Of a stretch of 64,000 bases of DNA, positions 8,517 to 9,224 are shown in pieces. Position numbers and translations under genes: made by a program. The notes under the pieces are model-generated. The model saw nothing but the letters and a program-made list of their open reading frames with translations. It was not told where the DNA came from and ran no database searches. The DNA is from a bacterium (GTDB lineage Bacteria > Bacillota > Clostridia > Oscillospirales > Acutalibacteraceae): NCBI GenBank assembly GCA_020625875.1, contig JAHLAX010000008.1:1-64000 (forward strand), written 5' to 3'. Numbering within the stretch: the first letter of the stretch is position 1; each line of letters begins with the position of its first letter.

Positions 8517-9224
8517 TTAAGCTGTATATTCGGCGATAATGCCATCATAGCTGATAGTGTCGATGTATTTAGCGTAGTAAGTTACGCCGTCCTTAACAAC
8601 ATAGAAGCGAGCAGCTACCTGTGAGTTGTCTGGCATATCTTTGACAGCTAATGTTACATACTGTTCGCCCATTGTTGTATTAACCGTGCCTGTGCATTTG
8701 ATAGTCTTTTCGCCGTTGCCGCCGTTTTTCTTCATATTAGTGAAGTTAGCGGAAGCCTGCTCTTTGCCGCTAACCTTTGCTACTACATAGCCATACTCAG
8801 TAGCATTATTGTCGAGCCACTCCTGATTAACCTGTGTGTAAATACGAACAGCGGGCTCACCTACCTTCTCTTGGAAACCTTTGATTTCAGCATTGCCTGC
8901 GAGCGGATCAGTAACTCTTAACACAAGATGCAGAGTGCTTTCCTTCTGGATGTTATAATCTTGAAGAGTCCTGTTGTCCTCGAGCTGCTTGCCCGCGAAG
9001 ATTAGGCGCTGCTGATCGGGCGGTATACCCTCTTTATCCTGGATTTTTGCTTTAACATTCTCAACCGTGTCTGAGGGTTCAACATCAAGAGTGATAGTTT
9101 TGCCTGTCAAGGTTTTTACGAAAACCTGCATAGCCGAAACCGTAAAAACAGACACAGTAATCATACTCACGATAATCAAAGTCGTGAGCAGAATGCTTAT
9201 TGGTCTTTTTAAAACTTTTTTCAT
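8517..9224 (-). CDS. Secreted ubiquitin with a C-terminal extension domain
   Basis: The start is the ATG at 9224 behind GAGGAGG; upstream in-frame ATGs lack a ribosome site. Residues 1-31 are a Sec signal peptide ending VSA, and cleavage there would make ubiquitin Met1 the mature N-terminus. Residues 32-103 align with eukaryotic ubiquitin 1-72 without gaps and with five changes from the human protein as I know it: I3V, E16D, I23V, G53N, S57Q. All seven lysines and the Leu8/Ile44/Val70 patch are kept. The LRGG tail is replaced by Val-Thr-Asp, leading into a beta-rich domain of about 130 residues (104-235) that ends DGIIAEYTA. It therefore cannot be conjugated through Gly76. Bacteroides fragilis carries a distinct secreted ubiquitin. 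Eukaryotic origin is inferred. Confidence 0.93.

Follow-up and report, generated by a model that had tools for sequence, protein, structure and literature searches.

A 64,000-nucleotide stretch of a bacterial genome (hereafter the window; contig JAHLAX010000008.1 of assembly GCA_020625875.1, family Acutalibacteraceae) carries a gene whose product joins a predicted signal peptide, a ubiquitin close to the human one and a C-terminal beta-rich module. By its sequence and its predicted beta-grasp ubiquitin fold, the protein is a member of family PF00240, and the sequence identifies it as no conjugatable ubiquitin, the C-terminal Gly75-Gly76 being absent. Beyond this gene, ubiquitin recurs at the N-terminus of dockerin proteins and of surface-type proteins in bacteria. 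We tentatively favor, as possible rather than probable, that the window protein is an exported, non-conjugatable ubiquitin mimic binding ubiquitin-recognising proteins of eukaryotic neighbours (hosts, protists). The parts of the gene are as follows.

8517..9224, minus strand: ubiquitin fusion gene, an open frame of 235 amino acids (aa) plus stop.
9132..9224, minus strand: predicted signal peptide of 31 aa with the end ...FTVSA, recognised from the sequence and from a small-x-small junction shared with relatives.
8913..9131, minus strand: ubiquitin core of 73 aa without Gly-Gly, recognised from the PF00240 match, the comparison with human ubiquitin and an AlphaFold2 model.
8520..8912, minus strand: C-terminal part, a short linker and a predicted Ig/Fn3-like beta-sandwich module of no Pfam family.

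The PF00240 match covered residues 43-113 with E = 2.3e-32 and 111 bits (cut-off 25.4). Against human ubiquitin, 67 of 73 core residues were identical, the differences being I3V, E16D, I23V, G53N, S57Q, and L73V; the 92% identity over 73 residues to solved ubiquitin chains agreed with this. A preliminary description made from the sequence had counted five differences in the first 72 residues, which is correct, and the sixth (L73V) falls at residue 73. It had also described the seven lysines and the Ile44 patch as retained and LRGG as lost. Both statements hold: all seven lysines and L8, I44, H68, and V70 are present, and LRGG is replaced (residue 72 is R, then come V and T-D-P, or LRV-TDP), with 131 further residues beyond the core, the last of them Ala. 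AlphaFold2 modelled the ubiquitin part with a predicted local distance difference test score (pLDDT) of ~90-97, the predicted template modelling score (pTM) of the whole protein being only 0.52, and this predicted fold matched solved ubiquitin with TMt up to 0.99 and a root-mean-square deviation of 0.5. The protein is thus like eukaryotic ubiquitin and polyubiquitin (PF00240) in sequence, predicted fold, lysines, and Ile44 face, and unlike them in the missing Gly-Gly, the bacterial-type leader, and a C-terminal fusion without an LRGG junction. For E2 (PF00179) and UCH (PF00443) the own genome gave no match; the control genomes gave none either, and this is no proof of absence.

The ubiquitin Met1 codon (9131-9129) comes immediately after ...TVSA, as the preliminary description had noted for a signal-like leader ending exactly before Met1, and the junction is a shared one. 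Among the 97 open reading frames (ORFs) with an extension of 18 or more residues, window included, a small-x-small pair immediately precedes Met1 in 77, whereas each of 13 other offsets gave 14 to 47. These ORFs belong to a non-redundant near-identical set of 109 (25 from the genus, 10 from the genome search, and 74 from named records, with eleven duplicates removed), in which the core begins with Met in 107 and Gly-Gly is absent in 96, internal in eight, and at the very end in five.

What follows ubiquitin differs among relatives. Within the genus, Dockerin_1 lies behind it in 18 of the 24 ORFs scanned (L040, with a run of N, was excluded from the 25). In the named records, 55 of 74 ORFs were scanned (the 19 excluded were mostly truncated, leaderless or near-duplicates), and they gave autotransporter (12), S-layer (10), fibronectin type III (8), Listeria-Bacteroides repeat (5), and IPTL-CTERM (3) modules, where one protein may count in more than one family; dockerin was not among the 25 families shown. 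The window protein itself has no Dockerin_1 and is in that sense no dockerin component of a cellulosome or amylosome.

A leader plus a ubiquitin ending exactly in LRLRGG was seen at L096 4905-5231, L105 4872-5231, L164 4908-5231, and L150 4863-5231. These four ORFs come from Dyella, Sphingomonas canadensis, a Burkholderiales bin, and a deltaproteobacterial bin, and possibly encode exported ubiquitins that are still conjugatable in principle. A second class consists of diverged ubiquitin-like domains inside long, mostly InlB-type repeat proteins of the genus. Those of L061-L068, L070, L072, and L082 lie in repeat proteins of several hundred to 2,000 residues, and their second half is better conserved than the first. 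Diverged copies keep 28 to 39 of 72 ubiquitin residues (n = 12).

The preliminary description had known only Bacteroides fragilis as a precedent, and the idea of a lone case beside it does not stand, since 33 of 161 genomes of the genus match PF00240 and the architecture recurs across phyla. In wider samples, matching genomes numbered 20 of 398 at family level (19 of these exceeding the cut-off), 5 of 394 at order level, and 5 of 398 at phylum level (4 exceeding it); all these counts include the own genome and pool near-identical with diverged copies. Readable near-identical ORFs in the genus numbered 25, in 23 genomes. Named bacterial and archaeal genomes held at least 241 confirmed places, and the results for named genomes rest on the best 80 of these 241. 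A near-identical ubiquitin behind a signal-like leader recurs in many phyla. Among the matches listed, carriers without a metagenome tag include Ruminococcus albus 8, Cohnella sp. OV330, Saccharibacillus sacchari, Paenibacillus faecis, Paracidovorax valerianellae, Pseudovibrio denitrificans, Neptunomonas antarctica, Rhodopirellula maiorica, and Dyella sp. OK004. Plasmid records matched in 3 of 72,556 cases, one of them with > 80% identity, and a ubiquitin gene is present on pRUMAL01 of R. albus 7, a complete plasmid record. A phage-borne origin was set aside after no match was found in 50,697 phage records (IMG/VR lay outside the scan). Leader-ubiquitin fusions also stand in L104 and L138, bins titled Methanothrix sp. 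and Methanotrichaceae archaeon, so that the architecture may reach archaea. Some metagenome bins kept in the set may hold non-bacterial contigs (e.g., L102, L114, L119, L126). Searches with the whole protein and with the core were dominated by eukaryotic polyubiquitin and are described from the best 120 of 7945 and of 7991 matches.

The ubiquitin core is under strong constraint. The ratio of non-synonymous to synonymous rates (dN/dS) was 0.059 against L045, the nearest relative from the same genus, and 0.038 against L092, from a record titled uncultured Ruminococcus sp., and against R. albus 8 the synonymous sites were saturated. Over 300 genus pairs, the median proportions of synonymous (pS) and non-synonymous (pN) differences in the core were 0.74 and 0.10. 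Between the window and L045, ubiquitin keeps 68 of 72 residues and the C-terminal module is 35% identical.

One explanation would use the ubiquitin fold for stability only, as a compact, protease-resistant N-terminal cap or spacer without a ubiquitin-specific partner. Ubiquitin is very stable, it adjoins quite different modules in these proteins, and diverged copies do exist inside InlB-type repeat proteins. A role in stability allows divergence, as in the 12 diverged copies, yet the N-terminal copies remain near-identical at high or saturated synonymous divergence and retain the exposed hydrophobic face. We consider it rather unlikely.

The leader-Met1 junction, the missing Gly-Gly, the surface modules in relatives, and the constraint on the core lead us to infer that the gene product would be exported through Sec with a free Met1 as its mature start and would be displayed or held outside the cell. 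The C-terminal module would likely be the part holding the protein in place, where relatives have dockerin, S-layer or autotransporter modules. With much less support, the target may be eukaryotic (host, gut or rumen protists, fungi) and the binding may go through the Ile44 face, while a mimic without Gly-Gly would escape conjugation. Leader, conserved Ile44 face, and lost tail, as read in the sequence, are consistent with a decoy directed toward host or protist enzymes. A similar layout is described for secreted ubiquitin effectors of plant-parasitic nematodes (PMC5705921), with signal peptide, ubiquitin, and a C-terminal extension, exported toward a neighbour. Unlike the window protein, these effectors are eukaryotic, and their 12-aa extension is cleaved off in the plant (PMC5705921).

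Several points weigh against an exported mimic aimed at eukaryotes. Export and display are predictions from the sequence, and any partner is hypothetical. Loss of the tail is not universal, as the five ORFs with an exactly terminal Gly-Gly and the eight with an internal one indicate. The Ile44-face residues are conserved in the 109 near-identical ORFs (L8 in 105; I44, H68, and V70 in 99 each), figures biased upward since relatives were sampled by likeness to the query. In the 12 diverged domains, conservation is 0.74 for the eight face positions, 0.42 for the rest of the surface, and 0.61 for buried positions; this is a weak statistic, because 920 of 20,000 random same-half surface sets (about 1 in 22) matched the conservation of the face and the 12 rows are related to one another. 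One of these domains, from L126, is a short separate ORF and not part of a repeat protein, and the lists of buried and face positions follow the ubiquitin literature. Moreover, the carriers in Cohnella, Paenibacillus, Neptunomonas, and Methylotenera are not known as gut dwellers, and thus a gut host is not needed. Finally, the only tested bacterial case that we found, the B. fragilis ubiquitin BfUbb, acts on bacteria (PMC5705921), and according to a review low micromolar concentrations of an oyster ubiquitin lacking both C-terminal glycines are bacteriostatic (PMC10892293).

These last two observations speak for the main rival, an exported antibacterial of the BfUbb type, in which the ubiquitin part would arrest the growth of related bacteria by binding one of their proteins. 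As described (PMC3352274, PMC5705921), BfUbb has its signal peptide directly before Met1, lacks a terminal Gly-Gly, and comes from a gut bacterium in which only part of the strains or species have it, and in all of this the window protein resembles it. Synthetic 76-aa BfUbb inhibited 13 of 40 B. fragilis strains (PMC5705921), and ubiquitin 1-76 inhibited two Gram-positive species at 60 micromolar according to the review (PMC10892293). The patchy presence of the gene (the 33 of 161 genomes, and an empty site in the relative L213) would also fit a weapon against near kin. However, the window core shares 92% of its residues with human ubiquitin, and the bovine protein, which has the human sequence, was inactive on the BfUbb-sensitive strains tested (PMC5705921). 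The same review regards full-length ubiquitin as a poor antimicrobial (PMC10892293). In addition, a diffusible toxin of 76 aa differs from the window protein, whose ubiquitin is joined to a C-terminal module, and from the many relatives that carry dockerin, S-layer or autotransporter modules. No candidate immunity gene could be identified, but producers of BfUbb apparently do without one. On balance, an antibacterial role is unlikely, if still a serious contender.

The window protein is, in sequence, like BfUbb in its leader and its lost tail, but it is not a free 76-aa protein. Mature BfUbb is free, 76 aa long, and ends in cysteine, whereas the window protein is fused, ends in Ala, is 92% identical over its 73 residues, continues for the 131 residues of its C-terminal part, and has many relatives with surface modules. 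Pointing the other way, toward a eukaryotic target, BfUbb also blocked ubiquitination in vitro and complexed covalently with human E1 (PMC3352274).

The eukaryotic mimic could also be one instance of something broader. Many phyla would then share exported, mostly non-conjugatable ubiquitins as the outermost module of surface proteins with dockerin, S-layer, autotransporter or the new sandwich module, a general camouflage or decoy read by eukaryotic predators and hosts, with near-identity kept because eukaryotic ubiquitin-binding proteins must read the module. This extension is doubtful. A displayed ubiquitin might instead be an adhesin ligand that binds an animal-cell receptor (CXCR4 has been proposed) or protist surfaces and aids attachment. 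Its inferred position at the tip of surface proteins would suit this, but many carriers are presumably not animal-associated. Ubiquitin 1-74, without Gly-Gly, binds CXCR4 without activating it according to the review, which also notes that CXCR4 binding is disputed (PMC10892293); we see attachment as improbable.

For the origin of the gene, the preliminary description had proposed acquisition from a eukaryote, and this remains a sensible reading of the 92% identity. Its donor could not be named. The window core was compared with 205 distinct ubiquitin units taken from 240 proteins (almost all labelled eukaryotic or without a label) and with 106 distinct cores from bacteria; on each side the closest sequence differed from it at four of 72 residues. 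A tree of 303 rows was unresolved, with 7 of 300 inner branches starred. Labels changed 41 times along it, the starred branches forcing only 2 of these changes, against an average of 85.7 for shuffled labels, and near-copies alone would explain this clustering. The substitutions of the window core are not diagnostic either, N53 occurring in 11 of 205 units and 11 of 106 cores and D16 in 88 of 205 and 53 of 106. The further claim of host-like codons and a non-recent arrival was borne out. In codon usage, the core ranks at the 23rd percentile among 620 segments of equal length taken from 31 other genes of the window, and together with the high to saturated synonymous divergence between relatives this supports an old acquisition.

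An assembly or binning artefact, in which a read or contig of eukaryotic origin had been placed in a bacterial bin, is extremely improbable. The source assembly has 284 contigs and 5.7% contamination, and we saw no second assembly of the same species; the cluster to which the protein belongs, P0122, has three member sequences and one contig, the window's own. But the gene lies in the interior of a 96-kb contig with bacterial genes on both sides, and it has a bacterial-type leader, Shine-Dalgarno sequences, and host-like codons. For the ubiquitin family as a whole, isolates and the complete plasmid record refute the artefact, and the gene can be taken as real, as first described.

The C-terminal module, modelled alone, reached pLDDT 94.5 as a predicted Ig/Fn3-like sandwich, in agreement with the beta-rich domain of the preliminary description, and the window copy had no Pfam match above the cut-off. 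Apart from the own protein, a protein search with the C-terminal part gave a single match, a distant metagenome protein of 340 aa; relatives of greater length fell outside the length limits. A profile of five module copies matched in 21 of 161 genomes, with up to 18 copies per genome, often in long proteins. The own genome gave 21 matches to dockerin and 6 to cohesin, and 5 of the cohesin matches exceed the cut-off. In this genome the module also ends one leader-cohesin protein and two long leader proteins. The leader-cohesin protein (L209 1678-2667, minus strand, contig C166) is followed by two small ORFs with the starts MKKYLAPE and MKEYLAPE, an arrangement suggestive of a surface complex in which the module occurs together with cohesin and dockerin.

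A small ORF follows the ubiquitin gene as well.

8337..8498, minus strand: small ORF of 53 aa, MKTLYTSPVITVEELTK..., a probable downstream partner with copies in the own genome.
8509..8514, minus strand: Shine-Dalgarno-like AGGAGG of the small ORF, read in the sequence.
8290..8317, minus strand: terminator-like stem-loop with a 12-pair stem and then a T-rich tail, which would close a two-gene unit.

Two close copies of the small ORF exist in the own genome, each directly behind a gene with the same C-terminal module. Its start, MKxLYxxPxITVEELxKxDVLCxS, is conserved and its second half variable (window 8337-8498; L172-L201). A pattern search located an MKxLYxxPxITVEEL-type ORF at 24 of 30 module loci; elsewhere it hit 1 of 151 loci, and this single hit is the window. 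Relative to the stop of the module gene, the small ORF begins between 39 bases upstream and 19 bases downstream at 23 of these 24 loci; the remaining one, L174, has a distance of 8 bases when read as L045. L174, L186, L192, and L194 were left out of sets A4 and A5. Module gene and small ORF thus recur together as a two-gene cassette, of which the window holds the variant with ubiquitin. The small ORF may encode a precursor peptide or a partner of the module. With its own AGGAGG it stands directly behind the ubiquitin gene and before the terminator-like stem-loop, and the two genes therefore probably form one short unit. Terminator-like stem-loops in the region numbered 2, against 0.9 expected from shuffles; promoter-like sites numbered 5 against 3.3 expected, and none is claimed.

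Around this unit lie the following features.

9231..9236, minus strand: Shine-Dalgarno-like AGGAGG of the ubiquitin gene, read in the sequence.
9440..10792, minus strand: GlmM-like gene upstream of the cassette, an open frame, 95% identical in L213.
7657..8262, plus strand: TetR-like gene on the other flank, an open frame, 80% identical in L213.

At 8517-9224, the minus-strand frame is open and the plus-strand frame is interrupted by stops. An alternative start at 9251 would give 244 aa; the ATG at 9224 (235 aa) is more likely on the sequence because of the AGGAGG at 9231-9236. The names TetR-like and GlmM-like are ones we assume from the look of the sequences. The preliminary description had suggested a check of synteny in related genomes, which was informative in one case: in L213, from genome G059 without a PF00240 match, ~250 bases separate the two flanking genes, and neither ubiquitin nor the small ORF has a match there. 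Four other near relatives (L214-L217) had no ubiquitin match beside GlmM, but TetR was not found in the stretches compared, so they are little informative. Elsewhere in the window, 17577-20249 (plus strand) encodes a long protein with a leader and a tail that looks dockerin-like by eye; its contig had no match in the genome Dockerin_1 search.

Close in layout is WP_013483628.1, a 'ubiquitin family protein' of pRUMAL01 with a leader directly before Met1, no Gly-Gly, a C-terminal domain, and a core 88% identical to that of the window. Its C-terminal domain is different from that of the window protein, and its gene stands in a run of small secreted-looking proteins of one style. On that plasmid (L202 383-7273), small proteins, several with leaders and TVTIPA...VTFTISVE-type domains, surround the ubiquitin gene, and the run also holds a PI-PLC-domain protein, a dockerin protein, and one protein with an NPATG tail, which we take to resemble a sortase signal. 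Among the open-licence papers listed (for some searches the first 20), none dealt with WP_013483628.1, with ubiquitin modules of Ruminococcus, or with ubiquitin fused to a dockerin, S-layer or autotransporter module. The word ubiquitin has 0 occurrences in PMC4081043 and PMC4300822 and appears in PMC9210761 only in a reference title.

The carriers of this module include cultured species (R. albus 7 and 8, Cohnella, Paenibacillus, Saccharibacillus). Eukaryotic ubiquitin is thought to be conserved for its many partners, and its strong conservation in cells without a known ubiquitin pathway raises the question of which outside partner constrains it. A eukaryotic partner would make these proteins a new level at which bacteria interact with their hosts or grazers, and a bacterial one would make BfUbb the first member of a large class.
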